Assembly: GCA_018241185.1 (NCBI GenBank)
Contig: JAFEEH010000200.1
Location: 16,218-80,217, forward strand
Length of the DNA stretch: 64,000 nt
Source of the DNA: Pseudomonadota bacterium
GTDB lineage: Bacteria; Pseudomonadota; Gammaproteobacteria; Burkholderiales; Burkholderiaceae_C
Direction: 5' to 3'
Below, piece after piece: positions 1,542 through 53,210 of this stretch (its first letter is position 1; each line of letters begins with the position of its first letter). Under the pieces are notes generated by a model, which ran no database searches, was not told the DNA's origin, and saw nothing but the letters and a program-made list of their open reading frames with translations. The position numbers and the translations under genes were made by a program.

Positions 1542-2971
1542 ACCGGTTCACGCCTTCGTTCGCTATGAAAAATATAGCTGCTCGCGCAGCACTGGCGGGC
1601 GCTGCAGCCCTTTTTGGCTTGAATGCACAGGCCGGCGTGCCGATCGAGCGCTGGCAACTGCCCAACGGCGCGCAGGTCTACATGGCCGCCACCGATGCGC
1701 TGCCCATCGTCGACGTGCAGATCGACTTCGACGCCGGCAGCCGGCGCGACCCGCCCGCGCAGGCGGGCCTGGCCGGCGTGACGGCCGGCATGGTGGAGAA
1801 AGGCGTGCGCGCCGAAGACTGCCCGCCCTCGGCCGCGCGCAAGGCCACCTCGCCGGCCGACGGCGGCGGCTGTCGCGTGCCGGCGCTCGACCAGAACCAG
1901 CTCGGCGAGGCCTGGGCCGACCTGGGCGCCGAGTTCGACGTCGGCGCCAGCGCCGACCGCATGAGCTTCACCCTGCGCAGCCTGGCCGACCCGGTGCTGC
2001 TGGCCAAGGCCGTGGCGCTGGCCGCGCGCGAGATCGGCGAGCCGTCCTTCCCCGACGAGGTGTGGCAGCGCGAACGCGAACGCCTGTCCGCCGCCATCCG
2101 CGAGAGCAACACCAAGCCCGGCCCGGTCGCCAGCCGCACCTTCGGCCGCGACGTGTACGGCGGCCACCCCTATGGCGACGACGCGACCGAAGCCACGCTG
2201 GCCGCGATCTCCACCGCCGACATGCGCGCGCGCTACGCCCAGACCGTCCTGCCGTGCCGGGCCAAGCTCACGGTGGTGGGCGCCGTCACGCGCGCGCAGG
2301 CCGATCGCATCGCGACCGACCTGCTGGCGCGCCTGCCGGCGACCGCGGGTGCCTGCCCCGCACTGCCGCCCGTGGCCGAGGTGCCGCCGCTGGCGAAGGC
2401 CGTCACCGAGCGCATCCCCTTCGACTCGGCCCAGGCCCACGTGCTGATCGGCCAGCCGGGGTACGCACGCCGCAGCCCCGACCACTTCGCGCTCACGCTG
2501 GGCAACTACATCCTGGGCGGGGGCGGCTTCGTCTCGCGCCTGACGGACGAGGTGCGCGAGAAGCGCGGCCTGGCCTACAGCGTCTACAGCGGCTTCTCGC
2601 CGGGCCTGCACGCGGGCGCCTTCCGCATCGGCTTCCAGACCCGGCCCGACCAGGCCGACGAAGCCGTGAAGGTGGCGCAGGACGTGCTCGCCAGGTTCGT
2701 CGCCGAGGGTCCCACCGAGGCCGAGCTCAAGGCCGCCAAGGACAACCTCATCGGCGGCTTCCCGCTGCTGCTGGACAGCAACCGCAAGCTGCTGGGCAAC
2801 GTCGCCAACATCGCCTGGAACGACCTGCCGCTGGACTACCTCGACACCTGGACGGCGAAGATGAACGCGGTGACCGTGGCCGACATCAAGGCCGCGTTCG
2901 CGCGCACGCTGCAGCCGCAGAAGATGGTGACGGTGGTGGTGGGTGGGGCCGAACCGGCCGCAAAAAAGTAA
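1538..2971 (+). CDS. M16 family peptidase-like protein, non-catalytic partner
   Basis: A 477-residue M16 homologue without an HxxEH motif; the equivalent region carries no metal ligands. It keeps the C-lobe features of substrate-binding partners: a Gly-rich loop (LGGGGFVSRL) and an Arg-Tyr pair in REKRGLAYSV near residues 340-350. It is translationally coupled to the catalytic M16 gene, supporting a heterodimer. The exported N-terminus is odd: residues about 12-26 (NIAARAALAGAAALF) are encoded by a copy of the dispersed palindromic repeat, which therefore supplies the hydrophobic core of the signal peptide. An insert near residues 80-115 contains two Cys and is not typical of the family. Confidence 0.85.
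   Translation: MNRFTPSFAMKNIAARAALAGAAALFGLNAQAGVPIERWQLPNGAQVYMAATDALPIVDVQIDFDAGSRRDPPAQAGLAGVTAGMVEKGVRAEDCPPSAARKATSPADGGGCRVPALDQNQLGEAWADLGAEFDVGASADRMSFTLRSLADPVLLAKAVALAAREIGEPSFPDEVWQRERERLSAAIRESNTKPGPVASRTFGRDVYGGHPYGDDATEATLAAISTADMRARYAQTVLPCRAKLTVVGAVTRAQADRIATDLLARLPATAGACPALPPVAEVPPLAKAVTERIPFDSAQAHVLIGQPGYARRSPDHFALTLGNYILGGGGFVSRLTDEVREKRGLAYSVYSGFSPGLHAGAFRIGFQTRPDQADEAVKVAQDVLARFVAEGPTEAELKAAKDNLIGGFPLLLDSNRKLLGNVANIAWNDLPLDYLDTWTAKMNAVTVADIKAAFARTLQPQKMVTVVVGGAEPAAKK
1571..1617 (-). repeat. Dispersed Comamonadaceae-type repeat, copy 1 (inside signal peptide)
   Basis: A copy of the roughly 50-bp element described in the findings, oriented so that its GC-rich CTGCAGCGCCCG core reads on the minus strand. 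It lies wholly inside the second M16 gene and encodes the signal-peptide core. The terminal palindrome is reduced to TATAGC. Confidence 0.75.
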
Positions 2972-2996
2972 GAATCGACTTAGTAATTCTCCACAG

Positions 2997-3053
2997 GAAA
3001 AGTGCCTCTAGCGCCCGTTGGAAGGGCGCAACCAGCTATCGATTCGATAGTAA
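2997..3053 (+). repeat. Dispersed repeat, copy 2 (intergenic)
   Basis: It lies between the convergent M16 and LysR genes. The order is AAAAGTGCC, a diverged GC core (TAGCGCCCG), then GCGCAACCAGC and the terminal palindrome GCTATCGATTCGATAG. It may double as a transcription barrier between the convergent genes, but no U-run is present. Confidence 0.8.
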
Positions 3054-3071
3054 AGTGGAAGCCGTCCGCGC

Positions 3072-3968
3072 TCAGCGCAACGTCTCGCGCGCCGCCTGCA
3101 CCACCGCACGTGTGAGCCCGGCCAGCAGCGTCGACGCGGCGCGTGCGTGCTGCCAGTAGAGCGGCACGTCCAGCACCGCGCCGGGCACCAGTTCGACCAG
3201 GCTGCCGTCGGCCAGGGCCGGTGCCGCCAGCGCCTCGGGATGCAGGCCCCAGCCCATGCCGGCCCGTGCCGCCTCGACGAAGGCGTGCGACGAGGGCAAC
3301 CGGTGCTGCGGCAGCACCACGGCGCGGTGGCACACGCGCCGTGCCCAGCGCGCCTGCAACTGGTCCTTGTGGTCGAACAGCAGGCTTGGCGCCTCGGCCA
3401 GCGAACGTGCGCCCACGCCCTGTGCGAAATGCCGAGCGACGAAGTCCGGGCTGGCCGCCGCCACGTAGCGCATCGCGCCCAGCGGCTGCACGCTGCAGCC
3501 CGCGGCCGGCTGGGCCAGCGCCGTCACGGCGGCCAGCACGGCGCCGCTGCGCAGCCGCTCGGCGGTGTGGTCCTGGTCGTCGACGGCGATGTCCAGCAGC
3601 ACCGGCGCCTGTGCCGCGAAAGTCGCGATGCCGGGCGTGAACCAGGTCGCCAGGCTGTCGGCGTTGACGGCGACGGGCAGGGTCGCGCGGGCGGGCGCCG
3701 CGCCGTCGCCATCGACCGCGGGCAGGGCGGCACCGAGGTCGTGCTCCATCAGGCGCACCTGCTCGACGTGCTGGCACAGGCGCCGCCCGGCGTCGGTGGC
3801 GGTGCAGGGCTGGCCGCGTACCACCAGCGCACCGCCCATGCGCTCCTCCAGCAGCCGCACCCGCTGCGACACGGCCGAGGGACTCACGTGCAGCGCGCGG
3901 GCCGCACGTTCGAAGCTGCCCTCGCGGACGACGGCATGCAGGGCGGCGAGGGCGGCGTAGTCGAGCAT
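3072..3968 (-). CDS. lysG: LysR-family regulator of LysG/ArgP type
   Basis: A 298-residue LysR-type regulator. The N-terminal helix-turn-helix reads REGSFERAARALHVSPSAVS (residues about 15-34), followed by QRVRLLEERMGG, typical of the ArgP/IciA/LysG branch rather than CysB or GbpR. A periplasmic-binding-fold effector domain follows. It is divergent from a LysE-family exporter at 4045, the classic arrangement in which the regulator senses lysine or arginine and switches on the exporter. The 76-bp gap is nearly filled by a large dyad (3970-4017), a good operator candidate. The gene symbol follows the arrangement; argP is an equally valid name. Confidence 0.85.
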   Translation of the reverse strand: MLDYAALAALHAVVREGSFERAARALHVSPSAVSQRVRLLEERMGGALVVRGQPCTATDAGRRLCQHVEQVRLMEHDLGAALPAVDGDGAAPARATLPVAVNADSLATWFTPGIATFAAQAPVLLDIAVDDQDHTAERLRSGAVLAAVTALAQPAAGCSVQPLGAMRYVAAASPDFVARHFAQGVGARSLAEAPSLLFDHKDQLQARWARRVCHRAVVLPQHRLPSSHAFVEAARAGMGWGLHPEALAAPALADGSLVELVPGAVLDVPLYWQHARAASTLLAGLTRAVVQAARETLR

Positions 3969-3969
3969 G

Positions 3970-4017
3970 GATGAAGAAAAACTGAATCGAGTGAAGAAGA
4001 TTCAGTTTGTCTTCATC
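3970..4017. promoter_or_regulatory. Large inverted repeat between lysG and lysE, candidate operator
   Basis: Two 19-bp arms (GATGAAGAAAAACTGAATC at 3970-3988 and its complement at 3999-4017) match at all but one position around a 10-bp centre. The dyad begins two bases upstream of the regulator ATG and ends 27 bp before the chosen lysE ATG. Its AT-rich arms stand out from the GC-rich surroundings. LysR proteins bind such dyads as tetramers. Confidence 0.7.
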
Positions 4018-4044
4018 GCGCGGCGGAGGCAAGCTCGACCCCCG

Positions 4045-4674
4045 ATGACCGCCACTTCTTTCCTGCTTGCCTTCGGCCAGGGCCTGCTGCTGAGCCTGGG
4101 CCTCATCGTCGCCATCGGCGCGCAGAACGCCTTCGTGCTGCGCCAGGGCCTGCGGCGAGAGCACGTGGGCGAGGTTGTGCTGTTCTGCGCCCTGGCCGAT
4201 GCGGTGCTGGTGGCCGCGGGGGTGGCCGGCATGGCGCAGTTCCTGGCCGGGCGGCCGGACCTGGCACGCGCGCTCGCCATGGCGGGCGCGGCCTTCCTGG
4301 TCGGCTATGGGCTGCGCGCGCTGTGGCGCTGCCGGCGCGGCGATGCGCTGCGTGCACAGGCGGGTCACCCCGCCTTGCCGCGCGGCGCGGTGCTGGCACA
4401 GGCCGCTGCCTTCACCCTGCTGAATCCACACGTCTACCTCGACACCGTGCTCCTGGTCGGCAGCATCGGGGCGCAGCATCCGCCGCTGCAGCGCCTGGCC
4501 TTCGTCGCGGGCGCGGCGCTGGCGAGCGCAGGCTGGTTCGTGGCGCTGGGCTACGGCGCGCGCCTGCTGGCGCCGCTCTTCGAGCGCCCCCGGGCGTGGC
4601 AGGTGCTCGACGCCGGCATCGGGCTCACGATGCTGGCGCTGGCGGCGGGGCTGCTGGCGCGCGCGCTCGCTTAA
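4045..4674 (+). CDS. lysE: LysE/ArgO-family amino acid exporter
   Basis: A 209-residue inner-membrane protein with about six hydrophobic segments. The start MTATSFLLAFGQG leads into LIVAIGAQNAFVLRQGL, the conserved LysE/ArgO signature (GxQNAFVLRQG). The family exports basic amino acids, lysine or arginine, to prevent toxic build-up, for instance during growth on peptides. An upstream in-frame ATG at 3967 would add 26 charged residues and place the operator inside the gene. The start at 4045 matches family length. It is divergent from its presumed activator. Confidence 0.87.
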   Translation: MTATSFLLAFGQGLLLSLGLIVAIGAQNAFVLRQGLRREHVGEVVLFCALADAVLVAAGVAGMAQFLAGRPDLARALAMAGAAFLVGYGLRALWRCRRGDALRAQAGHPALPRGAVLAQAAAFTLLNPHVYLDTVLLVGSIGAQHPPLQRLAFVAGAALASAGWFVALGYGARLLAPLFERPRAWQVLDAGIGLTMLALAAGLLARALA

Positions 4675-4683
4675 GCTCGCTGC

Positions 4684-5307: not shown

Positions 5308-5406
5308 ATCCTGTGTGACAGGCCCGGCCCGGCCTCGGATGTTGCGCCGCAAGGCGGCGTACATAATGCGCCGAAAGACGAACCCGGTCCCCAGCAGGAG
5401 GAACTC

Positions 5407-7615: not shown

Positions 7616-7618
7616 AGG

Positions 7619-7782
7619 CGGACTTCCGCAGGCAGAGGTTTTGCAGAAGGCGCAGAAGCCATCCGTTTCCAGCCTGCAGCGCCGCTGCTCACGGCGTGGA
7701 CGTGGCCCGCGCGCAAATCCCTTGGTCTGTCTTTTTCGCGTCCTTTGCGTAACCTTCGCGTCCTCTGCGTCCGGAAGTCCGC
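7619..7782. repeat. Long inverted repeat, copy A (between pxpC and pxpA)
   Basis: Starts CGGACTTCCG and ends CGGAAGTCCG, the same termini as copies B and C. The right arm carries the repeated units GCGTCCTTTGCG and GCGTCCTCTGCGTCCGG. The left arm is more decayed (GCAGGCAGAGG). The centre differs from the other two copies. It begins just after the pxpC stop and ends 39 bp before pxpA, and no protein is encoded in it. Confidence 0.75.
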
Positions 7783-9543: not shown

Positions 9544-9560
9544 TATTGGGGGCGAATTGG

Positions 9561-9607
9561 GCTGCAGCGCCCGTCCAGTGGGCGTGGGCAGCTATTGATT
9601 CGATAGC
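9561..9607 (+). repeat. Dispersed repeat, copy 3 (supplies a stop codon)
   Basis: GCTGCAGCGCCCGTCC core, then GGCAGCTATTGATTCGATAGC. The terminal palindrome encodes the last residues (Leu-Ser-Asn-Gln) and TAG stop of the alpha/beta hydrolase read leftward from 10305. Confidence 0.85.
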
Positions 9608-10305
9608 AGAAGACGGCGCAGCCAGTCGCCCAGGAAGGCGTTCACGGTGCCGGGCTTCTCCATGGTCAGCATGTGGCCGCAGGCCGGGACCCAGTGCAGC
9701 TCGGCCTGCGGCAGCAGCGCGGCGATCTCGCGCGAGGCGGCCGGCGGCGTCAGGCGGTCGCTGTCGCCGCACATCACCAGCGCCGGACAGCGCAGCCGGC
9801 CCAGGTGCTGGCGTGCATCGGGGCGCTGCATCATCGCGCGGTTCTGGCGGATCAGCTGCGCCGCGCCGGCGTCCAGGATGATGTCCAGGTAACGCTGCGT
9901 CAGTGCCCGGTCGGCGGCCTGCGCCGGGTGGAAGGCGAAGACGATGTTGGGCTCGATCACGTCGCGCACGTCGCCCTGCTCGAAGAGTTCGATGGCCGAG
10001 GCGCGCAGCTCGTAGGTCTCGGGCGTTTCGGGCGCGGCATTCGTGCCCAGCAGCGCCAGCCCGGCGATGCGCTCCGGCGCCTGGCGGGCCGCCTCCATGG
10101 CCACCATGCCGCCCATCGAAGCGCCGCACAGCACCAGCGGGCCGGCCGTCTCGGCCAGCACGGCGGCGGCCATGGTCTCGATGCTGGCGTGGCGCATGTG
10201 GGCGTCGCTCACGAGCGGATCGAGGGCGGGCGGGACGATGGGCAGCTGGGCTTCCCACAGCCGGGCATCGCAGGCCAGGCCGGGGAGAAAGACGAGGCGG
10301 GGCAT
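9592..10305 (-). CDS. Alpha/beta-fold hydrolase
   Basis: A 237-residue cytosolic hydrolase. It starts MPRLVFLPGLACDARLWEAQ, with the oxyanion segment FLPGLACD. The nucleophile elbow is GASMGG (Ser near residue 82), the acid lies in CGDSDRLTPP and the catalytic His in ACGHMLTMEKP. This resembles BioH/PcaD/menaquinone-type esterases but no specific substrate can be read. The chosen ATG excludes 34 low-complexity upstream codons. The C-terminal LSNQ and stop come from a dispersed repeat, so the original end was probably different. Confidence 0.85.
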   Translation of the reverse strand: MPRLVFLPGLACDARLWEAQLPIVPPALDPLVSDAHMRHASIETMAAAVLAETAGPLVLCGASMGGMVAMEAARQAPERIAGLALLGTNAAPETPETYELRASAIELFEQGDVRDVIEPNIVFAFHPAQAADRALTQRYLDIILDAGAAQLIRQNRAMMQRPDARQHLGRLRCPALVMCGDSDRLTPPAASREIAALLPQAELHWVPACGHMLTMEKPGTVNAFLGDWLRRLLLSNQ

Positions 10306-12923: not shown

Positions 12924-12977
12924 GGCGCGAAGGAGTGTAGAGACCGGCCGACAACCCCACGGGTTCAAGCCAAATCG

Positions 12978-13025
12978 GCCTGCAGCGCCCGTCCCGCCTG
13001 CGCAAAGCGCTATCGATTTCGTAGC
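12978..13025 (+). repeat. Dispersed repeat, copy 4 (intergenic)
   Basis: GGCCTGCAGCGCCCGTCCC, then GCCTGCGCAAAGC and a palindrome GCTATCGATTTCGTAGC with one imperfect pair. It ends eight bases before the GntR stop and lies between that gene and the divergent side of the GDSL lipoprotein gene. Confidence 0.85.
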
Positions 13026-13033
13026 GCCGCGAT

Positions 13034-18011: not shown

Positions 18012-18025
18012 CCGGAGTTATGGAT

Positions 18026-18080
18026 AAAAAGTGCCTGCAGCGCCCGCCGGGCTTGCGCGAGCAGCTATGAATTCGATAGC
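18026..18080 (+). repeat. Dispersed repeat, copy 5 (intergenic, near-consensus)
   Basis: The complete layout can be read: AAAAAGTGCCTGCAG, CGCCCGCCGGGC, TTGCGCGAGCAGC and the palindrome GCTATGAATTCGATAGC. Within it GCGCCCGCCGGGCTTGCGC can form a small hairpin. It separates the TTC38-like gene from the phosphoribosyltransferase gene. Confidence 0.88.
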
Positions 18081-18083
18081 AAA

Positions 18084-19442
18084 TCAGTGCGCCGCTGCGA
18101 GCGGCGGCAACCCCAGCCCCGCATACACCGTGCCGGCCAGCCGGCGCAGCCGCCGCGACTCCGGCTGCCCGTTGAGCTGCTGCTGCACGATGCCCTGGGC
18201 GCCGGTGAGCGCGGCGGCCGTGCCGCTGCGCACCAGCGCATCGAGGTAGACCTGCTCGAAGAGGTCGCGCTGCGCGTGGCTGCCGCCGATCTCGACCATG
18301 CGCGGCAGGGCCGTGCCCAGGCCGTCGATGGCGGCGGCGTGGTCGCCGCGCGCGTGCGCCCGCAGCCCGCGCGCCGCCGGCACGCACACACGCTCCCACG
18401 CATGGCGTGTGGCCGCGGGCGCGGTGGGTGCATAGGCCTCGATGTGGCGCAGCAGCGTGTCGGCCTCGGGCCGGCCGGCGCGCGCCAGGCCGTAGAGGTA
18501 CTGCAGGTCGAGGAATGGCAGCACATGGTCGGCGGTGCGTCCGGACAGATGCGCCGCCACGTCCTGCCAGCGATCGCCCACGTCGATGCCCGCGAGTTCC
18601 AGCCGCGCAAGCAGCGACACGGCGCCGATCTGGTCCTGCGAGTAGTCCTTGACCACGCCCCAGCAATGGCGGTCGTACACCGCCAGCGCCTCGTCGTCAC
18701 GGCCCAGGTCGATGAGGAAGAGCGCCAGGTGCCACCAGTTGTGCGTGACCATGAAGGAGTTCAGGCCGGTCCAGGTCTCGCTCACGTCCTCCATGAAGGC
18801 CAGGCCCTCGCTGAGGCGGCCTTCGGTCAGCATCACGTGCGCCAGCGCATGGTGCGCCCATGGCTCCTTGCGCTCCATCGCGATGGCGCGGCGCGCGCTG
18901 GCTTCGGCCTCGCGCATCAGGTGGCACTGCTCGTAGCCGAAGGCCAGCATGCCATGCAGGTAGGGCACGTCGGCCGCGTGCGGCGCGGCCGCCAGCGCCA
19001 GGCGCAGCATGCCGGGGCAGTCGCCGAGGTTGAAGCAGTGGTACTGCCCGAGCTTGAGCGACACCAGGTCGCGCGGGAACTCGCGCGCCTGCTCCTCGTG
19101 CAGGCGGATCGCCTCGCGGAGGTCGCCTGCCACCCAGGCCGCCACCGCAGCGATGTAGCGGCGCTCGCGCGGCGTGGCGCGCGCGGCGCCGGCCTGTGCG
19201 CGGGCGATGAAAGGGCGGGCGTTCGCCACCGCGTCGGCCGACTCCGCGAACATCTGCAGCGTGGCGCAATAGGCCTGCACCAGGGGGTTGAGGTCGACGT
19301 TGGGCGTGAGCGCCAGGTTGGCGGCGCGCGCTTCGCAGGCGATGAAACCTTCGACGAAGTCCTCGACCAGCCGGTGGCTGGCGCTGTCGCTCAGGCTGAG
19401 CGGGTTGCCGAGCGGGTCGGCGGCAGAAGCGGCGTGGGGCAT
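18084..19442 (-). CDS. TTC38-like tetratricopeptide repeat protein
   Basis: A 452-residue cytosolic helical-repeat protein without signal peptide. Aromatic-rich blocks such as AWVAGDLREAIRLHEEQARE, YLHGMLAFGYEQCHLMREAE and HNWWHLALFLIDLGRDDEAL follow the TTC38 family (about 450-470 residues), an uncharacterised family shared with animals. Each block fits a TPR helix pair. It starts at ATG 19442 with the next gene upstream ending 43 bp away. A role in protein-protein interaction is inferred from the fold only. Confidence 0.75.
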   Translation of the reverse strand: MPHAASAADPLGNPLSLSDSASHRLVEDFVEGFIACEARAANLALTPNVDLNPLVQAYCATLQMFAESADAVANARPFIARAQAGAARATPRERRYIAAVAAWVAGDLREAIRLHEEQAREFPRDLVSLKLGQYHCFNLGDCPGMLRLALAAAPHAADVPYLHGMLAFGYEQCHLMREAEASARRAIAMERKEPWAHHALAHVMLTEGRLSEGLAFMEDVSETWTGLNSFMVTHNWWHLALFLIDLGRDDEALAVYDRHCWGVVKDYSQDQIGAVSLLARLELAGIDVGDRWQDVAAHLSGRTADHVLPFLDLQYLYGLARAGRPEADTLLRHIEAYAPTAPAATRHAWERVCVPAARGLRAHARGDHAAAIDGLGTALPRMVEIGGSHAQRDLFEQVYLDALVRSGTAAALTGAQGIVQQQLNGQPESRRLRRLAGTVYAGLGLPPLAAAH

Positions 19443-24113: not shown

Positions 24114-25010
24114 TCAGCCGTGCAGCACGCCCCCGGCCGGCGTGTGCTGCACGGCCTCGAGCAGGGCGCGCGTGTAGGGGTGCTCGGCCTCGCGGAACAG
24201 GCGCTCGGGCGCGCCGCGCTCGACGATCTGCCCCTTGAGCACCACGCACACGTCGTCGCACAGGTGGTTGACCACCGCGAGGTCGTGGCTGATGAGCAGA
24301 TAGCTGATGCCGAACTGCTGCTGCAGGTCCTGCATGAGGTTGAGCACCTGCGCCTGCACCGACACGTCGAGCGCGCTCACCGGCTCGTCGGCCACGATGA
24401 GCCTGGGCCGCGTGATGAGCGCGCGCGCGATGGCAATGCGCTGGCGCTGCCCGCCCGAGAACTCGTGCGGGTACTTGTCGAGGTCGGTGGTTCGCAGGCC
24501 CACGGCGGCCAGCGATTCGGCGGCGCGTTCGCGCTGTTCGGCGCGCGTGGCCGCTTCGGCGGTGCCGGCCAGGGCCTCGAGCGGCTCGGCGACGATGCGT
24601 GCCACCGTCTGGCGCGGGTCGAGCGAACCGTACGGGTCCTGGAAGACCATCTGGAAGTCGCGCCGCGCCACGCGCAGGTCGTGCTTCGACAGGGCGTTGA
24701 TGTCGCGGCCCAGCATCCGGATGCTGCCGCTGGTGGGCGTGTCCAGCGCCATCACCAGGCGCGCGATGGTCGACTTGCCCGAGCCCGATTCGCCCACGAT
24801 GCCCAAGCTGCGCCCGGCCTCGACCGTGAAGCTCACGCCGTTGAGCGCCTTCACCAGCGGCGGCGGGCCGAGCAGCTTCTCGCGCGGCAACGCGTAGTGG
24901 CGGACCAGGTCGGTGACTTCGAGCAGGGGCGGGTTCTTCGAGCCAAAAGTGCCTGCAGCGCCCGTCCCGCCTGCGGAATCAGCTACGGAATTGATAGCGG
25001 AATCACTCAT
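24114..25010 (-). CDS. Peptide-type ABC transporter ATP-binding protein (DppF/OppF-like)
   Basis: A 298-residue ATPase. Walker A is GESGSGKST near residue 75, the signature is [15 protein letters not shown], Walker B IVADEPVSALDVS and the H-loop LISHDLAVV. The C-terminal REAEHPYTRALLEAV is the usual oligopeptide ATPase tail. The first 25 residues are unusual: SAINSVADSAGGTGAAGTFG is encoded by a copy of the dispersed repeat, so the true ancestral start probably lay nearer LLEVTDLVRHY. The ATG overlaps the stop of the DppD-like gene. Confidence 0.92.
   Translation of the reverse strand: MSDSAINSVADSAGGTGAAGTFGSKNPPLLEVTDLVRHYALPREKLLGPPPLVKALNGVSFTVEAGRSLGIVGESGSGKSTIARLVMALDTPTSGSIRMLGRDINALSKHDLRVARRDFQMVFQDPYGSLDPRQTVARIVAEPLEALAGTAEAATRAEQRERAAESLAAVGLRTTDLDKYPHEFSGGQRQRIAIARALITRPRLIVADEPVSALDVSVQAQVLNLMQDLQQQFGISYLLISHDLAVVNHLCDDVCVVLKGQIVERGAPERLFREAEHPYTRALLEAVQHTPAGGVLHG
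24944..24998 (+). repeat. Dispersed repeat, copy 6 (inside the N-terminus of an ATPase gene)
   Basis: AAAAGTGCCTGCAGCGCCCG, TCCCGCCTGCGGAATCAGC, then GCTACGGAATTGATAGC with one imperfect pair. It is in frame with the downstream ABC ATPase and forms codons 4 to about 22. Confidence 0.85.
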
Positions 25011-26005
25011 GCCGCGACCTCCCGTCCCGCGGCCTCGGCGGCCACCGCCTCGATCCGGATGCAGCGCACCTGGTGCCCATGCGCCAATGGTGTGGGCGGT
25101 GGTGGCGTGGTGTGGCAGGCGTCGATGGTGAAGCGGCAGCGGCCCGCAAAGGGGCAGCCGGGCGGCAGGTCGACCAGCTCGGGCACGCTGCCGCGGATGG
25201 TGGCCAGGCGCCCGCCGCGTGGTGCGCCGAGCACCGGGCGCGCGGCGAACAGGCCTTGCGTGTAGGGGTGCGCGCGTTCGGCGAACACGGCACCGGTGGG
25301 GCCGCTCTCGACCACGCTGCCGCCGTACATCACGAGCATGCGCGACACGTTGTTGGCGATCACGCCGAGGTCGTGCGAGATCAGGATCATCGCCATGCCA
25401 CGCTCCTCGACCAGGCCGCGGATCAGGTCGAGGATCTGCTTCTGGATCGTGACGTCGAGCGCGGTGGTGGGTTCGTCGGCGATCAGCAGGTCGGGGCCGC
25501 AGGCCAGCGCCATCGCGATGCCGATGCGCTGGCGCTGCCCGCCCGAGAACTGGTGCGGGTAGGCGTCGAGCTTGGCTGCCGCATCGGGAATGCCCACGCG
25601 CTCCAGCAGCGCCAGCACCTCCTTGCGCGCGTCGGCCGCCGTGAGCCCGCGGTGCAGCCGCAGCGGCTCGCCGACCTGGCGCGCAATGGTGTGCACCGGG
25701 TTGAGCGCCGTCATCGGCTCCTGAAAGATCATGCCGATGCGGTTGCCGCGCACCTGGCACAGCGCCTTGTCGGGCAGGCCCACCAGTTGCTGGCCGTCGA
25801 AGCGGATGCTGCCCGTGACCTTCGCATTCGAAGGCAGCAGGCCCATGAGCGACATGACGGTGATGGACTTGCCGCAACCGGATTCGCCCACGATGCCCAG
25901 CGTCTCGCCGCGCTCGAGCGAGAAGCTGATGCCGCGCACCGCTTCGGCGGGGCCGCGCTGCGTCTGCAGGCCGATGTGGAGGTCGTTGACTTCGAGGAGT
26001 GCCAT
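25007..26005 (-). CDS. Peptide-type ABC transporter ATP-binding protein (DppD/OppD-like)
   Basis: A 332-residue ATPase. Walker A is GESGCGKSI near residue 40, the Q-loop [11 protein letters not shown], signature [15 protein letters not shown], Walker [14 protein letters not shown] and H-loop LISHDLGVI. The C-terminal oligopeptide-ABC domain is present with its Cys pattern ([18 protein letters not shown]), which can hold an Fe-S cluster in related proteins. It is coupled to the DppF-like gene by an ATGA overlap and separated from the permease gene by an inverted repeat. Confidence 0.93.
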
Positions 26006-26016
26006 GGAATCGGGAT

Positions 26017-26142
26017 CGGACTACCGGACGCAGAGGACGCGAAGGTTTCGCAGAGGACGCAAAAGGGTCAGAAAGAAATTCTTTATGGAAGTTCTTCTGC
26101 GTCCTCCGCGGAACTTCTGCGTCCTCTGCGTCCGGAAGTCCG
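26017..26142. repeat. Long inverted repeat, copy B (between dppD- and dppC-like genes)
   Basis: 126 bp from CGGACTACCGGACGCAGAGG to its complement ending CGGAAGTCCG. The 49-bp arms match at about 42 positions by eye. Each arm carries GCAGAGGACGC-type units twice. A short AT-rich centre (AAGAAATTCTTTATGG) separates the arms. It lies in the 149-bp intercistronic gap and is noncoding. Confidence 0.85.
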
Positions 26143-26154
26143 TATTCGTGTTCA

Positions 26155-27024
26155 TCACCGTGCCCTCGCCAGCTTCGGGTCGAGCAGGTCGCGCAGGCCG
26201 TCGCCGAGGAGGTTCAGGCCGAGCACGGCGAAGGCGATGGCCAGGCCGGGCCAGACGGCCAGCAGGGGCTGCTGGAACATCAGCGTCTGCGCCTCGCTCA
26301 GCATGCGGCCCCACGAGGGCTGCGGCGGTTGCGTGCCCAGGCCGAGGTACGACAGCGCGGCCTCGGCCAGGATGGCGATGGCGAAGCGGATGGTGATCTG
26401 CACGATCAGCACGGCCGAGATGTTGGGCAGCACGTGCTGCATCGTGATGGCGAAGGGGCCCTTGCCGCAGGCGCGCGCCGCCGCGATGTACTCGCGCGAC
26501 CAGATCGCATTGGCCGAGGCACGCGTGATGCGCGCGAACGTCGGGATGTTGTAGATGCCGATGGCGATGATCGCGTTCACGATGCCGGCGCCGAACACGG
26601 CCGTGAGCATGATGGCCGAGAGGATGGCCGGGAAGGCGAGCGAGAAGTCGGTCAGCCGCATGATGGCCTCCTCCACCCAGCCGCGCCGGGCCGCCGCCAG
26701 CAGGCCGAGCGCCGTGCCGACCACCAGGCCGATGCCCACCGCGATCACGCCCACCAGGATCGACGCGCGCGCCCCCACCAGCAGCAGCGAGGCCACGTCG
26801 CGCCCGAAGGCGTCGGTGCCCAGCCAGTGCCGCGCCGAGGGCGACTGCATCTTGGCCGCCATGTCCATCTCGTAGGGCGACCAGGGCGTCCACACGTACG
26901 ACACGGCGGCGGCCGCAACGAGCAGCAGCGTCAGCACGCCGCCGATGACGAAGCTGCGGTGCCGCAGGGCGCGTTGCCAGAAGCCGGGGGCGGAGCGAGC
27001 CGAGGAAAGGGTCGTGGTGGTCAT
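26155..27024 (-). CDS. Peptide-type ABC transporter permease (DppC/OppC-like)
   Basis: A 289-residue inner-membrane permease. It has an N-terminal helix (FVIGGVLTLLLVAAAAVSYV) and the OppC_N region HWLGTDAFGRDVASLLLVGA. The EAA coupling loop is in REYIAAARACGKGPFAITMQ and is followed by HVLPNISAVLIVQ. It pairs with the DppB-like permease to form the channel. It is bracketed on both sides by long inverted repeats B and C. Confidence 0.93.
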   Translation of the reverse strand: MTTTTLSSARSAPGFWQRALRHRSFVIGGVLTLLLVAAAAVSYVWTPWSPYEMDMAAKMQSPSARHWLGTDAFGRDVASLLLVGARASILVGVIAVGIGLVVGTALGLLAAARRGWVEEAIMRLTDFSLAFPAILSAIMLTAVFGAGIVNAIIAIGIYNIPTFARITRASANAIWSREYIAAARACGKGPFAITMQHVLPNISAVLIVQITIRFAIAILAEAALSYLGLGTQPPQPSWGRMLSEAQTLMFQQPLLAVWPGLAIAFAVLGLNLLGDGLRDLLDPKLARAR

Positions 27025-27036
27025 GGGTTGTGAATA

Positions 27037-27163
27037 CGGACTACCGGACGCAGAGGACGCAAAGGTTTCGCAGAGAACGCAGAAGGAAGCAGATGAAGTT
27101 CTTCTTTGCTTTTACTTCTGCGACCTCTGCGGAACTTCTGCGTCCTCTGCGTCCGGAAGTCCG
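27037..27163. repeat. Long inverted repeat, copy C (between dppC- and dppB-like genes)
   Basis: 127 bp with the same ends and arm structure as copy B, in the same orientation (left arm with CTACC, right arm with GGAAG). The centre differs (AAGTTCTTCTTTGCTTTTAC). It fills the gap between the DppC-like start and the DppB-like stop. Confidence 0.85.
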
Positions 27164-27180
27164 CTCCCGATTTCAGGGCC

Positions 27181-28638: not shown

Positions 28639-29103
28639 TCAACCCTTCTTCTTGCGCTTGCCACCCGCAGCGGCCGTCGACGGATCGCGCGCGGTGAAGG
28701 CGTCGGTCTCGCCTTTCGTGTGCTTCTTCGGCTTGTGGGTCTTCGGCGGCTTCGCCATCGTTTCGCGCGGCACGGGATTCGCCGCTGGCGCGGGCGGCGC
28801 CGCAATCAGGGCGGGGCGCTGTCGGCCAGCCTCGCGCTCCAGTGCGCTGCGCTCGCGGGCCATCGCATCGGCCTGTCGCTGCACATCGCGGGTGCGCCGG
28901 TCCTGTGCCTGGCGGTCGGCGCTGCTGCGTGCGTCGTCCACTGCCACCGGTCGCCCGTCGGGGCAGGGCTGGTCGCTGTAGCTGCTGCCGCAGCGCCAGG
29001 TCTGGCTTCCCAAGCCATTTGGGCCTGCAGCGCCCGCCGGATGGGCGCAAGCCGCTATCAAAAGTGAAGCAATCGTGTGAGCGGCGCGGTGTTGTGTGCG
29101 CAT
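28639..29103 (-). CDS. Small exported (possible lipo-) protein of unknown function
   Basis: A 154-residue protein. The signal region (SLLIAACAHPAGAAG, residues about 13-27) is formed by a copy of the dispersed repeat. LIAAC gives a plausible lipobox at Cys19, with signal peptidase I cleavage after AGA as an alternative. The mature part opens with WRCGSSYSDQPCPDGRPV, resembling the SDxPC segment of DUF4124-type periplasmic proteins. An Arg/Ala/Gln-rich helical stretch and a Lys-rich tail (HKPKKHTKGE, GGKRKKKG) follow. Function unknown. Confidence 0.62.
   Translation of the reverse strand: MRTQHRAAHTIASLLIAACAHPAGAAGPNGLGSQTWRCGSSYSDQPCPDGRPVAVDDARSSADRQAQDRRTRDVQRQADAMARERSALEREAGRQRPALIAAPPAPAANPVPRETMAKPPKTHKPKKHTKGETDAFTARDPSTAAAGGKRKKKG
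29018..29062 (+). repeat. Dispersed repeat, copy 7 (inside a signal peptide)
   Basis: GGGCCTGCAGCGCCCGCCGG, ATGGGCGCAAGCC, then GCTATCAAAAG, with the second half of the palindrome lost. In the minus-strand gene it reads Leu-Ile-Ala-Ala-Cys-Ala, a lipobox-like sequence. Confidence 0.8.
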
Positions 29104-33184: not shown

Positions 33185-34051
33185 CTAGACCGCCCAGCCT
33201 GCGAGAGGATGGACTGCCAGATTGCTGCACTGCCGAAGCTGCCAACCCGGGGGAGGGTCGTCGAGCAACAGGCCGTGCGGCGCATTGTCCCTCTGTTCCA
33301 GCGGCGCGAACACCGCGCTGCCGGACCCGGTCATCCGTGCTTCCAGTCCCTGGCTGCCGAGCCACTCGATGGCCTGGCGCACCTCGGGGCAGAGCCTCTG
33401 GGCGACCGGCTGCAAGTCGTTGTGGCCGAATCTGAAGATTTCGGCTGCATCGTTTGCAGCAAAGCCAGAGAGTATAGCAGGACTTGTTGCGCGCTGAAGG
33501 TCTTCGGCGGCAAAAATGAGACGCGTGTCCAGCCCGGCTGTCGGTTTGAGCACCGCGAAGCGGCCGCCCGGCAGGGCCACCGGCGTGATCTCCTCGCCGA
33601 TGCCCTCGACCCAGGCGTTGTGCCCACGCAGGAAGAAGGGCACGTCGGCACCCAGCGTGAGGCCGATGCGTTCGAGCCGCTGCAGCGGCAGGCCCAGGCC
33701 CCACAGCCGATTGAGCGCCAGCAGGCAGGTGGCCGCGTCGGACGAGCCGCCGCCCATCCCGGCCTGGGCCGGCACATGCTTGGCGATGCCGATGTGTGCA
33801 CCCTGGCCCGGGCCGGCGAAGGCCTGCAGCGCCCGCGCGGCCCGCAGCACCAGGTCGTCCGCGGGCAGCGGCGTGGTCAGGTCCTCGCGCGAGAGCTGGC
33901 CGTCATGGCGCAGTTCGACATGCAGCACGTCGCTCCAGTCGATCAGCATGAACACCGACTGCAGCAGGTGGTAGCCGTCGTCGCGGCGGCCGGTGATGTG
34001 CAGGAAGAGGTTGAGCTTGGCCGGCGCCGGCAGGTCGTACAGGGCGTTCAC
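33185..34051 (-). CDS. ispE: 4-diphosphocytidyl-2-C-methyl-D-erythritol kinase
   Basis: A 288-residue GHMP kinase of the non-mevalonate isoprenoid pathway. It opens NALYDLPAPAKLNLFLHITG, the GHMP ATP loop is VPAQAGMGGGSSDAATCL near residues 95-112, and the late motif is ARMTGSGSAVFA. The start is GTG at 34051, overlapping the lolB stop (GTGA). The family pairing with lolB upstream and tRNA-Gln/prs downstream supports the call. Confidence 0.95.
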   Translation of the reverse strand: MNALYDLPAPAKLNLFLHITGRRDDGYHLLQSVFMLIDWSDVLHVELRHDGQLSREDLTTPLPADDLVLRAARALQAFAGPGQGAHIGIAKHVPAQAGMGGGSSDAATCLLALNRLWGLGLPLQRLERIGLTLGADVPFFLRGHNAWVEGIGEEITPVALPGGRFAVLKPTAGLDTRLIFAAEDLQRATSPAILSGFAANDAAEIFRFGHNDLQPVAQRLCPEVRQAIEWLGSQGLEARMTGSGSAVFAPLEQRDNAPHGLLLDDPPPGWQLRQCSNLAVHPLAGWAV

Positions 34052-34578
34052 GGCCGGCGGCTCTCGACGCCGGCGCGCGGCACGGCCTCGAAGACCACGC
34101 GCAGGTCGGCGGTGGGCTGTGGCGATTCGCGCACCGCCTGCAGTCGGCCCGAGGCGACCTGGCTCAGGTCGGCGCGCCAACCTGGCACCGCAGCCGGCTG
34201 GCCCGCCAGCCATTGGAAGAGTGCATCCACCGGCAGGGCGGCACCGGTCACGCGTTCGGCCAGCGCGTCGATGGAGTCGTAGCGTTGCGTGCGCTGCCCG
34301 TCGCGCAGCAGCGCTTCGCCCGGCGACCACTGCAGGATGCCCAGCGTGCTGCCGATGGGGCTGGTGAGCGTGAGTTCGCCCCGCCCGGGGGCGCCGCGCA
34401 GTTCGAACAGGGCGGCGAAGGACTGCACCGGCTGGCTGTCCACGCGCAGCGACAGGCGCCCCGTCCATTGACCGTCTTGAGGGTCAAAAGAGCCGCTGGG
34501 GTGCATGGGTGTTGCGCAACCAGCTATCAAAAAAGGAGCAACAGCCGCCGCGGCGGCCAGGGCCGTGCGGCGCTTCAC
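34048..34578 (-). CDS. lolB: Outer-membrane lipoprotein insertase LolB
   Basis: A 176-residue lipoprotein with signal KRRTALAAAAAVAPFLIAGC (lipobox Cys21). The mature part shows LolB features: WTGRLSLRVDSQPVQSFAAL, FELRGAPGRGELTLTSPIGS, and the mid-protein WLAGQPA. LolB receives lipoproteins from LolA and inserts them into the outer membrane. The start is GTG overlapping the TPR gene stop. The codons for the lipobox itself (LIAGCATP) lie within a diverged copy of the dispersed repeat. Somewhat shorter than the usual 190-200 residues. Confidence 0.87.
   Translation of the reverse strand: MKRRTALAAAAAVAPFLIAGCATPMHPSGSFDPQDGQWTGRLSLRVDSQPVQSFAALFELRGAPGRGELTLTSPIGSTLGILQWSPGEALLRDGQRTQRYDSIDALAERVTGAALPVDALFQWLAGQPAAVPGWRADLSQVASGRLQAVRESPQPTADLRVVFEAVPRAGVESRRP
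34483..34533 (+). repeat. Dispersed repeat, copy 8 (diverged, inside lolB lipobox)
   Basis: TCAAAAGAGCCGCTGGGG, then GTGTTGCGCAACCAGC and GCTATCAAAAAAGG. The GC core is heavily diverged, and the right half still aligns well with the consensus. On the minus strand it reads Leu-Ile-Ala-Gly-Cys-Ala. Confidence 0.6.
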
Positions 34579-39384: not shown

Positions 39385-40475
39385 GCGGCCCGCCCCCCGC
39401 GGTGGCGTCGGCGAAGTCGCTGACTCCTGCCTTCGCTCCCCTGCTCGTGGCCTGGCAGCGAAGCCACGGCCGCAGCACCCTGCCATGGCAGAACACGCAC
39501 GACCCCTACCGGGTGTGGCTGTCCGAAGTCATGCTGCAGCAGACGCAGGTGGTCACCGTGCTGGGCTACTACGCCCGCTTCCTGGAACGCTTTCCCACTG
39601 TGGCTGCGCTGGCGGCCGCCCCCGAGGACGAGGTGCTCGGCCTGTGGAGCGGGCTGGGCTACTACAGCCGCGCCCGCAACCTGCACCGCTGTGCGCAGGA
39701 GGTGGTGGCGCGTTTCGACGGCGCCTTTCCGCACAACGCGGCCGAACTCGCCACCTTGCCGGGCATCGGGCGTTCGACGGCGGCGGCCATCGCGGCCTTC
39801 TGTTTCGGCGAGCGGGTGGCGATCCTGGACGGCAACGTCAAGCGCGTGCTGGGTCGTGTGCTGGCCTTCGAGGGCGACTTGGCGAGTGCCGCGCAGGAGC
39901 GCCTGCTGTGGGACGCTGCCACCGAACTGCTGCCGCCCGAGGGCGAATGCGAAGCCATCTCCGCCTACACGCAGGGGCTGATGGACCTGGGCGCCACCGT
40001 GTGCCTGCCGCGCCAGCCCAACTGCCTGCTGTGCCCGGTGCAGTCGCTGTGCCGCGCGCGGGCACTGGGCGCCACGGACCGCTTTCCGGTCAAGACGCGC
40101 AAGCTGCGCCGCAGCGCGCAGGCGCTGTGGCTGCTGCTGGCGCGGCGGGACGATGGCGCCGTGTGGTTGGAGAAGCGGCCGGACAGCGGCATCTGGGCCG
40201 GGCTCTACGGCTTGCCCGCCTTCGACAGCCATGGCGCGCTGCTCTGCGCCTGCGGTGCGGCCGACGACACGGGCTTCGAGGACCTGCCGGCCTTCACCCA
40301 TGTGCTGACACACAAGGATTTGCACCTCCACCCGGTCGAGCGGTGGGCAGCCGTTGACGTGGTGCCCGTATCGGGCGCCGGGCAGTGGGTGGCGGCCGAT
40401 GCCTGGCAGCGGTTGGGCCTGCCGGCACCGGTGCGCAAGCTGCTGGAGCAGCGATTGGGCGCCGCTGGCGTCTGA
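39381..40475 (+). CDS. mutY: A/G-specific adenine glycosylase
   Basis: A 364-residue enzyme removing adenine mispaired with 8-oxoguanine. WLSEVMLQQTQVVTVLGYY and the helix-hairpin-helix LATLPGIGRSTAAAIAAFCF precede the catalytic Asp in ILDGNVKRVLGR. The [4Fe-4S] ligands follow the C-x6-C-x2-C-x5-C pattern in CLPRQPNCLLCPVQSLC. A C-terminal NUDIX-like MutT domain recognises 8-oxoG. The start is GTG overlapping the dynamin-like gene stop, so repair and the GTPase are translationally coupled. Confidence 0.96.
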   Translation: MSGPPPAVASAKSLTPAFAPLLVAWQRSHGRSTLPWQNTHDPYRVWLSEVMLQQTQVVTVLGYYARFLERFPTVAALAAAPEDEVLGLWSGLGYYSRARNLHRCAQEVVARFDGAFPHNAAELATLPGIGRSTAAAIAAFCFGERVAILDGNVKRVLGRVLAFEGDLASAAQERLLWDAATELLPPEGECEAISAYTQGLMDLGATVCLPRQPNCLLCPVQSLCRARALGATDRFPVKTRKLRRSAQALWLLLARRDDGAVWLEKRPDSGIWAGLYGLPAFDSHGALLCACGAADDTGFEDLPAFTHVLTHKDLHLHPVERWAAVDVVPVSGAGQWVAADAWQRLGLPAPVRKLLEQRLGAAGV

Positions 40476-40480
40476 GTGCC

Positions 40481-40534
40481 AAATCGGGCTCCAGCGCCCG
40501 CCCCGCCTGCGTGAGCAGCTATGAAATTGATAGT
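40481..40534 (+). repeat. Dispersed repeat, copy 9 (between convergent mutY and rapZ)
   Basis: AAATCGGGCTCCAGCGCCCG, CCCCGCCTGCGTGAGCAGC, then GCTATGAAATTGATAGT. Both the GC core and the terminal palindrome are recognisable. Confidence 0.85.
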
Positions 40535-40548
40535 AATTCGATGTCGGT

Positions 40549-46148: not shown

Positions 46149-46164
46149 TCGGGCACAACGCCCC

Positions 46165-48423: not shown

Positions 48424-48467
48424 TGACGCTACTTTAGCCTGCGCCTCGAAACAAGGCGTCCGGGCAC

Positions 48468-48492
48468 AAAAAAAGCACCGCATGCGGTGCTC
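48468..48492 (-). terminator. Intrinsic terminator between rpoZ and spoT
   Basis: GCACCGCATGCGGTGC is a perfect 16-bp palindrome (48475-48490). On the minus strand it is followed by seven T, giving a strong terminator just after rpoZ. Confidence 0.85.
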
Positions 48493-48517
48493 TTTTCTGT
48501 AGCAGAAAGGCCTCGGT

Positions 48518-48721: not shown

Positions 48722-48758
48722 GACGTTCTCTTTCGGATGGGTGGCACAGGTGCCGGTG

Positions 48759-50311: not shown

Positions 50312-50424
50312 CGAGCCTCGCTGTTGTTCGTCCGCTGAATCGCCCCGTGTGATCGGCATGTGCAGGAGGTTCCGGCACCGCGTTCGCTTGCCGCTCCGTC
50401 GCCTTGGGGCGAAACTCCCGGATT

Positions 50425-51432
50425 ATGTCAAAGGTCAAACCGTCGCCCCTGTTGCCCGACACGGTCATCGGTGGCTACCGCGTCGTGCGGCGGCTGTCGG
50501 CGGGGGGCTTCGGCGTCGTCTACCTGGCCGTGGATTCGTCGGGGCAGCAGGTCGCGATCAAGGAGTACCTGCCCTCGTCGCTGGCCACGCGTGCCATGGG
50601 CGAACTGGCGCCTCAGGTGCCTCCTGAAAAGCTGTCGCTCTACCGCCTGGGTCTCAAGAGCTTCTTCGAGGAAGGCCGCTCGCTCGCGCAGATTTCGCAC
50701 GCCTCCGTCGTGAGCGTGCTGAACTTCTTCCGCGAGAACGAGACCGTCTACATGGTGATGAACTTCCTCGACGGCGCCACGCTGCAGGACTTCATCGTCA
50801 CCGCCCGCGACCTGAAGAAGGCCAAGGTCTTCCGCGAATCCACCATCCGCTCGCTCTTCGACGAGATCCTGCGCGGCCTGCGAGTGGTGCACCAGCACAA
50901 GATGCTGCACCTGGACATCAAGCCGGCCAACATCTTCGTGACCGAGGACGACCGCGCGGTGATGATCGACTTCGGCGCCGCGCGCGAAGTGCTCAGCAAG
51001 GAAGGCAACTTCATCCGCCCCATGTACACGCCGGGCTTCGCGGCCCCGGAGATGTACCGCCGCGATTCGTCCATGGGGCCGTGGACCGACATCTACGCCA
51101 TCGGCGCGTGCATCTACGCCTGCATGCACGGCTATCCACCCAACGACGCGCCCCAGCGCATCGAGAAGGACCGCCTGGGGCTGTCGCTCTCGCGCCTGCG
51201 CGGCGTGTATTCGGACGACCTGATCGAGGTGGTGGAGTGGTGCATGTCGCTCGATCCGCTGTCGCGCCCGCAGTCGGTCTTCGCGCTGCAGAAGGAGCTC
51301 AGCCGCGAAGGCGAGCGCCGTTACACCAAGCTGTCGGTGGGCGAGAAGATGCGCCTGTCGATCGACAACATGCGCTCCTACGAGAAGAAGGCGCTGCCCA
51401 AGGCCGTGGCGCCCACCACCCGACCCGCATGA
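50425..51432 (+). CDS. Serine/threonine protein kinase (Hanks type)
   Basis: A 335-residue soluble kinase. The glycine loop LSAGGFGVVYLAVD and the ATP Lys in VAIKEYLPSSLA lie near residues 24-52. The catalytic loop is LHLDIKPANIFV (HLD instead of HRD), followed by metal-binding DFG in MIDFGAAREVL and an APE equivalent in PGFAAPEMY. No transmembrane segment or sensor domain is seen. It is followed by a PP2C phosphatase gene, a classic kinase-phosphatase pair. Targets are unknown. Confidence 0.92.
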   Translation: MSKVKPSPLLPDTVIGGYRVVRRLSAGGFGVVYLAVDSSGQQVAIKEYLPSSLATRAMGELAPQVPPEKLSLYRLGLKSFFEEGRSLAQISHASVVSVLNFFRENETVYMVMNFLDGATLQDFIVTARDLKKAKVFRESTIRSLFDEILRGLRVVHQHKMLHLDIKPANIFVTEDDRAVMIDFGAAREVLSKEGNFIRPMYTPGFAAPEMYRRDSSMGPWTDIYAIGACIYACMHGYPPNDAPQRIEKDRLGLSLSRLRGVYSDDLIEVVEWCMSLDPLSRPQSVFALQKELSREGERRYTKLSVGEKMRLSIDNMRSYEKKALPKAVAPTTRPA

Positions 51433-51499
51433 ACGCCCCCACATTCCCGTCCCGCACCGCGCGTGCGTCGATCGCCGCCCGCCGGGCCGCGCGCCTGCC

Positions 51500-52405
51500 G
51501 TGAAGTTCTCCGTCTTCCAGGTCAGCCGCAAGGGCGGCCGCGTCAAGAACGAAGACCGCATGGGCTACTGCTACACGCGCGAGTCGGGCCTGTTCCTGCT
51601 CGCCGACGGCATGGGCGGCCATCCCGAAGGCGAGGTCGCGGCCCAGCTGGCACTGCAGACCATCGCTGCGCTCTACCAGCGCGAGGCGCGTCCCACGCTG
51701 AAGGACGTCAAGACCTTCCTCGCCTCCGCCGTCATGGCTGCGCACCAGCAGATCATGCGATACGCGAGCAACAAGGCCATGCTCGACACGCCGCGCACCA
51801 CCGTGGTCGCGGCCGTGCTGCAGGGCAACACCGCCACCTGGATCCATTGCGGCGATTCGCGGCTGTACGTTGTGCGCGACGGGCAGATGCTCACGCGCAC
51901 GCGCGACCACTCGCACGCCGAGCGCCCGCGTCCCAATGCGGGCAACGAGCCCGTCAACCGCAACCTGCTGCTCACCTGCCTCGGCTCGCCGAGCACGCCG
52001 CTGTTCGAAGTGTCTGCACCACTCACGCTGCAACAGGGCGACCGGCTCATGCTGTGCTCCGACGGCTTGTGGGGCGTGATGGACGACCTGCTGCTCGTAC
52101 GCACCCTGTCCAACGGCAAGGTGTCCGACGCGGCACCCGAACTGGTCGAGATGGCGCTGCGCCGCGGTGGCCCGAGCGGCGACAACGTCACCTTGATCGC
52201 CATCGAGTGGGAAACGCCCGACGTGCCGGGCGCCGACGCCGGCGTCTCGACCGACGGCATCAGCGACGACGTGTTCGCCTCCACCATCCAGGCCGGCATG
52301 CCCGCCGACGGCGAGATCGACGACCTGGACGACGACGCCATCGAGCGCTCGATCGCCGAGATCAACGAGGCCATCCGGCGCTCCGCGGCCTCGCGCAAGA
52401 GCTGA
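51500..52405 (+). CDS. PP2C-family Ser/Thr protein phosphatase
   Basis: A 301-residue phosphatase with metal-binding acidic residues in [12 protein letters not shown] (motif 1), [15 protein letters not shown] (motif 2), [20 protein letters not shown] and [12 protein letters not shown]. The last 55 residues form an acidic Asp/Glu-rich helical tail. The start is GTG at 51500. Presumed to reverse the action of the upstream kinase. It precedes rph by 34 bp. Confidence 0.93.
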
Positions 52406-52439
52406 TCGCTTTCTTCTCCTTTTTCTTCTCCGTTCCAGA

Positions 52440-53168
52440 ATGACTGCTTTCACCCGAAGCGGCGGCCGCGCCGCCGACCAGCTGCGCCCCGTGCGCATCA
52501 CCCGCGGCTTCACCATCCATGCCGAGGGCTCGGTCCTCATCGAGTTCGGCCAGACGCGCGTGCTGTGCACCGCCTCGGTCGAGGAGAAGGTGCCCCCGCA
52601 CAAGAAGGGCAGCGGCGAAGGCTGGGTGACCGCCGAGTACGGCATGCTGCCGCGCGCCACCCACACCCGCAGCAGCCGCGAGGCGGCCAAAGGCAAGCAA
52701 ACGGGCCGCACGCAGGAGATCCAGCGCCTCATCGGCCGCTCGATGCGCGCCGTGTTCGACCTCGCCGCGCTGGGCGAACGCACCATTCATCTGGACTGCG
52801 ACGTGCTCCAGGCCGATGGCGGCACGCGCACCGCAGCCATCACCGGTGCCTTCGTGGCGGCGCAAGACGCCGTGAACAAGCTGATCGCCGCAGGCAGCCT
52901 CGCCGCGTCGCCGATCAAGGGCCCGGTCGCCGCCATCTCGGTCGGCATCGTCGGCGGCACGCCGTTGCTCGACCTGGAGTACACCGAGGACTCCGCCTGC
53001 GACACCGACATGAACGTCGTGATGACCGGTGCCGGCCATTTCGTCGAGGTGCAGGGCACGGCCGAAGGCGTGGCCTTCACGCGCGACGAGATGAACCAGC
53101 TGCTGGCCCTGGCTGAGAAGGGCATCGGCGAACTGGTCGGACTGCAGAAGAAGGCGCTATCGAATTGA
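52440..53168 (+). CDS. rph: Ribonuclease PH
   Basis: A 242-residue phosphorolytic 3'-5' exonuclease trimming tRNA precursors. Motifs are [60 protein letters not shown], and [17 protein letters not shown]. The C-terminal end KKALSN and the TGA stop come from a copy of the dispersed repeat, so the natural tail was probably replaced or trimmed. It lies between the kinase/phosphatase pair and rdgB. Confidence 0.96.
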
Positions 53169-53210
53169 TAGCTGCTTGCGCCCGTCCGGCGGGCGCTGCA
53201 GCCTCTTTTT
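53156..53210 (-). repeat. Dispersed repeat, copy 10 (supplies rph stop codon)
   Basis: GCTATCGAATTGATAGC palindrome, then GCTGCTTGCGCCCGTCC, GGCGGGCGCTGCAGCC and TCTTTTTG. It contains the rph stop and reaches to within five bases of the rdgB start, so it forms the whole spacer. Confidence 0.88.

Follow-up and report, generated by a model that had tools for sequence, protein, structure and literature searches.

The window, a stretch of 64,000 nucleotides of contig JAFEEH010000200.1 (assembly GCA_018241185.1), belongs to a Xenophilus-like member of the Comamonadaceae, whose LolB is 92-94% identical to the LolB of five public records, three of them Xenophilus. It possesses ten copies of a repeat of about 66 bp, nine of them strong and one diverged. 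Each strong copy is detected with E <1e-15 by nhmmer using a nine-copy window profile, of which the same nine copies are also the seeds. Three of the ten copies are located, in the same reading frame, inside the predicted signal peptides of an M16-family protein, a small protein and LolB, a claim of the initial annotation that profiles and synonymous recoding both uphold:

1538..2971, + strand: M16-family protein, 477 aa (Pfam PF05193 and PF00675; orthologues)
1559..1624, + strand: repeat copy forming most of the predicted M16 signal peptide (..KNIAARAALAGAAALFGLNAQA; nhmmer)
28639..29103, - strand: small predicted secreted protein, 154 aa (predicted signal peptide)
29008..29073, - strand: repeat copy in the predicted signal peptide of the small protein (..LLIAACAHPAGAAGP; nhmmer)
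34048..34578, - strand: LolB, outer-membrane lipoprotein, 176 aa (Pfam PF03550)
34476..34542, - strand: diverged repeat copy that encodes the lipobox of LolB and the linker after it (FLIAGC21ATP; profiles)

LolB is probably essential. Its copy scores weakly against the nine-copy profile, at 13 bits (E 0.0026 for the 64 kb searched), and rises to 26 bits once the profile is refined on 453 kb from its own genome. The residues named at the outset are found as described, i.e. Cys21 in LolB, Cys19 in the small protein and Arg replacing Cys in M16. In LolB the repeat encodes the predicted lipobox; a working lipobox is doubtful for Cys19 of the small protein: a cysteine is present at this position in five of seven repeat-bearing orthologues and absent in two, and in several of them the signal ends in an AxA-like site. 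The small protein does not match any Pfam family, so its export rests on the predicted signal peptide.

The repeat is short, dispersed and present in many copies, 409 in 2.05 Mb of four genomes (the window's own, G000, together with G013, G089 and G065), and has no gene of its own, features it has in common with intragenic small mobile repeats and bacterial MITEs. Its consensus consists of an AT-rich palindrome GCTAT..ATAGC at one end, followed by GCTGCTYGCGC, a centre that varies between genomes, GCTGSAGGC and a T-rich end. In the three genomes first sampled, the signal-coding strand of the consensus has a single open frame, FAIxLIAA(C/R)A, and the opposite strand likewise has one. At the peptide level, the former bears a close resemblance to a Sec h-region or a lipobox.

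The likeness between repeat and signal peptides is DNA homology and not peptide convergence. A profile was trained on 191 copies, leaving out 22 copies in the signal-like frame near or in genes, and the N-terminal DNA of each orthologue was compared with 200 synonymous recodings that follow codon usage in the mature part of that gene; a pass is a score of at least 12 bits that also exceeds all 200 recodings of the same peptide. In the window, the LolB signal scores 19.8 bits (recoded maximum 4.3), the M16 signal 47.9 bits (12.6) and the small-protein signal 43.1 bits (25.4). The test is passed by 27 of 60 M16 orthologues, 20 of 65 LolB loci (16 of 60 genomes, plus four of five extra records, of which two are the same strain and DSM 19424 fails), 7 of 28 small-protein orthologues and 13 of 30 orthologues of a fourth family, SCO1/SenC, whose copies were first met on the window's own contig (L144) and in G065 (L230). 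All four sets are the best matches of larger ones (LolB 60 of 119 genomes, SCO1 30 of 59, M16 60 of the 112 that have some match, among them many distant M16 relatives, and the small protein 30 of 42, minus two lost in realignment), and therefore lean to near relatives. Within each family, the repeat occupies nearly the same register across genera. When recoded with signal-region codon usage, predicted-signal genes of the four genomes show the same excess: 13 of 547 reach at least 15 bits, some of them (L241, L247, L235) unlike true signals, versus 17 of 27,350 recodings, and 8 of 547 reach at least 20 bits versus 2 of 27,350. These signals are therefore copies of the repeat, which was rightly proposed as the DNA source of the predicted signal peptides.

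Signal copies depend on the presence of the repeat family. Among the 60 genomes counted, 35 are repeat-rich (at least 35 copies) and 25 repeat-poor (at most 13); the counting model was trained on G000, G013, G089 and G065, and the highest counts per genome are lower bounds (at least 83). The M16 signal copy is found in 27 of the 35 repeat-rich genomes and in none of the 25 repeat-poor ones, the LolB copy in 16 of 30 and 0 of 20, and the SCO1 copy in 13 of 17 and 0 of 8; for the small protein the counts (7 of 12 and 0 of 2) are not significant. In 30 genomes that carry a signal copy the flanks contain 20 further copies, at least one in 15 of the 30, and in 53 genomes that lack it the flanks contain none. 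Repeat-rich M16 signals with the motif spell it exactly ATAGCT in 23 of 27 cases, while ATA comprises 3.9% of Ile and GCT 5.9% of Ala codons in mature M16 of these genomes. Orthologues outside element-bearing genomes, singled out in the initial annotation as the informative comparison, thus lack the DNA signature in M16 by the recoding test (0 of 25), with G043 and G056 keeping ATAGCT; these two are among four repeat-poor M16 signals with the motif, and in G109 the same peptide is written in other codons, a pattern such as would be expected of decaying copies. Copy number is bimodal between genera, and rich and poor genomes are both present among neighbours on the M16 tree. On this unrooted tree 15 state changes are counted, compared to a mean of 19.9 in shuffled data, with 7 of 500 shuffles as low.

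Signal copies of unrelated genes appear to evolve in concert within a genome. M16 and SCO1 signal copies are more alike within the same genome (0.646) than between genomes (0.564; 13 genomes, 0 of 5000 permutations), and so are those of M16 and LolB (0.501 vs 0.446; 13 genomes, 0 of 5000). A same-genome excess is also found for M16 and the small protein (P 0.0046, 7 genomes), LolB and the small protein (P 0.004, 6 genomes) and LolB and SCO1 (P 0.039, 7 genomes). For these five gene pairs, row and column means and the G+C difference were taken out beforehand. No mature-segment control pair out of 1000 reaches the M16-SCO1 or M16-LolB value. The effect is strongest at third codon positions, with 0 of 1000 controls for both pairs; at second positions alone M16-LolB is not significant (P 0.13). 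In six genomes with M16 and SCO1 unlinked, i.e. on different contigs or far apart, the effect holds (P 0.003), which disfavours physical linkage of the two genes as its sole cause; five of the six are drafts, whose different contigs may lie close together, and in G013 the genes are 1.8 Mb apart.

Signal copies also match the remaining repeat copies of the genome they are in (P<1e-4 for M16, 16 genomes; P 0.005 for SCO1; P 0.0013 for LolB), and none of 1000 segments from mature M16 attains the whole-copy value. This likeness is located mainly in the variable centre (0.581 vs 0.439), is weaker in the ATAGCTGC block (P 0.005) and is not significant at the two ends of the repeat (P 0.16 and 0.087). 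In the window genome, the M16 and SCO1 signals have an exact run of 31 nt in common. In G057 an unusual centre is common to M16, SCO1 and a nearby third copy, and both signal peptides contain PAIFYWAAA.

On the window's own contig (C112 of G000), signal copies of SCO1 (L144:11152-11775), M16, the small protein and LolB occur within about 40 kb. The other 373 kb sampled from G000 contain no signal overlap in the placement test; two upstream extensions, both doubtful, are all that the refined profile adds there.

The usual assumption is that the signal peptide of each gene diverges on its own. Considering the DNA homology, the register common to many genera, the dependence on the repeat family and the within-genome likeness together, we regard it as probable that these signals are domesticated repeats which have stayed in the repeat pool and are rewritten by exchange within each genome. 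A short dispersed repeat, abundant in some Comamonadaceae and with one signal-like frame, would have landed in that frame at the starts of genes for exported proteins, and such copies would have been kept: as most of the signal peptide in M16, the hydrophobic core in SCO1/SenC, the lipobox region in LolB and the end of the signal in the small protein. There, the peptides they encode are predicted to work as export signals. The signal copies would then have been rewritten by exchange with other copies of the same genome, most likely by gene conversion, and unrelated proteins would thereby come to have export signals in the repeat dialect of their genome. The initial annotation had each insertion or conversion create or replace a signal peptide; conversion agrees with the within-genome likeness, while a fresh insertion each time does not agree with the same site being occupied in many genera. 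Export signals of several conserved envelope proteins are tied at the DNA level to a genome-wide repeat. If the reading is true, signal peptides would be interchangeable parts under concerted evolution, and the repeat a testable case of a non-coding sequence becoming and staying a protein-targeting sequence; signal-peptide likeness between unrelated proteins of these genomes would then be no evidence of shared function.

The main rival, which we consider unlikely but deserving of weight, is a lineage-specific trans-acting factor that reads the repeat as a DNA or RNA motif, such as a processing site, an uptake-like site or one bound by protein, and selects the copies to a dialect, with no exchange between them. 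DNA uptake sequences form lineage dialects. They are also biased to gene ends according to the parts of PMC2346458 compared. The conservation of ATAGC across genera in most copies, signal copies included, agrees with such a reader, which would also account for the 25 of 60 genera with few or no copies. The dialect, however, shows most clearly in the variable centre (residual 0.133) and to a smaller extent in the conserved block (0.047, P 0.005). The exact runs, 31 and 21 nt long, exceed what a motif reader needs, and at about 66 bp the repeat would be a long uptake sequence.

Distinctly improbable is repeated recent insertion, by which each genus refilled the same signal sites from its own pool without conversion. 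It accounts for the shared dialect as well as conversion does, and the many state changes on the M16 tree agree with it, but the same M16 register in 27 genomes would require site-specific re-insertion, and the six fully comparable window sites align through in congeners. An origin of the repeat from a signal-peptide sequence that later spread is slightly more improbable still. Because the M16 tree is unrooted, the direction is not directly shown by it; however, in repeat-poor genomes the M16 signals do not pass the DNA test, and the repeat occurs in at least four unrelated families, of which at most one can be the source. Due to these four families we favour domestication of the repeat, which would have preceded the signals. 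Lipoboxes of this type are common. Chance or convergence between signal peptides and a repeat both rich in A, L and I has the intrinsically signal-like frame in its favour, but is practically negligible, as the rare codons ATA and GCT speak against it and so do the recoding tests, whether run with the codon usage of the gene or with that of signal regions, by which it was rejected.

Several observations weigh against domestication with within-genome exchange, most of them against its broad form, in which copies in general create signals. This part of the initial annotation is not supported: 303 of the 409 copies are intergenic and 77 are inside proteins, 22 fall within roughly the first 40 codons, and 7 extend across gene ends; most coding copies are outside signal peptides. 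The 77 internal copies mostly follow two open frames (61 of 77 in two of six frames): one reverse frame accounts for 42 and the signal-like frame for 19, and the other four together for 16. Ten of the 11 N-terminal copies in the signal-like frame are in predicted signal genes, compared to 547 of 1878 genes overall (Fisher 3e-5), although one of the ten, L241, is probably an upstream artefact. The predicted excess of signal overlaps over random placement is borne out in sum (10 observed vs 1.8 expected in four genomes; without the window 8 vs about 1.76, scaled by hand, Poisson 0.0005), but it is modest and uneven between genomes (P 0.044 in the window genome, 0.57 in G013, 0.018 in G089 and <0.0005 in G065). 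Both overlaps of the window's own genome are in the window, hence there is none outside it. All ten same-strand overlaps use the signal-like frame, and three more are on the opposite strand; among the ten, however, the L243 protein looks cytoplasmic and DsbB contributes a membrane segment, not a signal peptide. Signals were called by a home-made rule and genes by a home-made caller, which overlooked the small protein and the start of SCO1 in the window genome, and the frame itself is hydrophobic, so that the enrichment is partly circular.

Further points of this kind concern the individual families and sites. The M16 copy is missing from 8 of 35 repeat-rich genomes and the LolB copy from 14 of 30. 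Small-protein signals do not match the other copies of their own genome significantly (P 0.25, four genomes). Long shared runs are found for M16-SCO1 (G000, G057) and not for M16-LolB, in which the mean run is 7.4 within and 6.7 between genomes. An early test of the best match in the own genome gave 6 of 11 (permutation P 0.15, four genomes), and the later own-genome tests, with more genomes, were chosen after this non-significant result. Finally, none of the 6 out of 10 window sites that can be compared in full with congeners is an empty repeat site. All six align through, one of them adjoined by an insertion of about 150 bp (two loci); mobility is therefore not seen between congeners. At 2988-3054 the congener L075 aligns through, yet its copy is unmatched by the seed profile and may thus have decayed.

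Examined hosts of overlapping copies match Pfam families M16, LolB, SCO1-SenC (twice), DUF2145, HlyD, Peripla_BP_6 and DsbB; the L128 host has no Pfam match. Copies coincide with the hydrophobic segment of DsbB (L234:4608-5033) and with the N-terminal anchor of an HlyD-type protein (L131:5833-7008). Ten proteins chosen from the hosts of the 77 internal copies include ABC_tran, DNA ligase, polyA polymerase and an Lhr-type helicase, and in-frame internal copies occur in conserved cytoplasmic-type proteins of the four genomes, e.g. L108:17771-19600, L111:4682-7030 and L139:7670-11569. The repeat is therefore also an intragenic element similar to the Rickettsia palindromic elements (RPE). Both are found in frame inside unrelated protein genes; in the passages compared, RPEs are about 105-150 bp long and are not presented as signal peptides (PMC2229807, PMC10969869), and about three quarters of the copies sampled here are intergenic.

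A mobile repeat supplying a signal peptide has been proposed earlier (Delihas 2007; PMC2759123, PMC2229807). The element in question, YPAL/RU-2 of Yersinia, is 168 bp long, and one signal-peptide locus is detailed in the parts of these papers compared. In contrast, the present repeat has about 66 bp, occurs in at least four exported families and many genera, and displays evidence of concerted evolution. Known DNA uptake sequences resemble it in their many copies and within-gene bias but are motifs of 10-12 bp, as far as the portion of PMC2346458 compared describes them, while the repeat is about 66 bp long with a variable centre. With REP/RAYT systems it has in common the short, palindromic, high-copy form and a Y1_Tnp gene in the window genome, but it is longer than the 20-40 bp given for REPs in the part of PMC3733652 compared; none of six Comamonadaceae genus names occurs in the text of that paper. 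Of 12 Y1_Tnp (RAYT-like) loci of the genus, three have a repeat copy directly adjoining the 3' end of the gene (L268:3667-3722, beside the Y1_Tnp ORF 3717-4412; L269:2293-2345; L275:2334-2394). RAYT mobilisation, in which the repeat is expected to flank such a gene, is not supported. Among the literature matches listed, in which subscription papers are mostly uncovered, no paper describes this repeat. The principle is known; what is new, as far as these searches show, is how many conserved families carry the repeat, how widely it is spread over genera, and its concerted evolution.

The repeat was also considered as an RNA structural element and rejected: RNAalifold on 60 copies yields 3 pairs and -0.12 kcal/mol, and only four tRNAs reach the Rfam gathering score in the window, leaving the repeat without an Rfam family. 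The seven remaining copies of the window, all found with nhmmer, are:

2988..3054, - strand: repeat copy between called genes
9545..9610, - strand: repeat copy partly overlapping the 3' end of the gene called 9592-10305 (- strand)
12964..13026, - strand: repeat copy between called genes
18019..18084, - strand: repeat copy between called genes
24935..25001, - strand: repeat copy between called genes
40472..40538, - strand: repeat copy between called genes that touches one of them at its end
53154..53219, + strand: repeat copy at the start of the gene called 53215-53841

A second repeat family (GGACGCAGAGGACGC...) is present at 7726-7781, 26001-26147 and 27032-27179 of the window, with inverted copies flanking the gene called 26155-27024.

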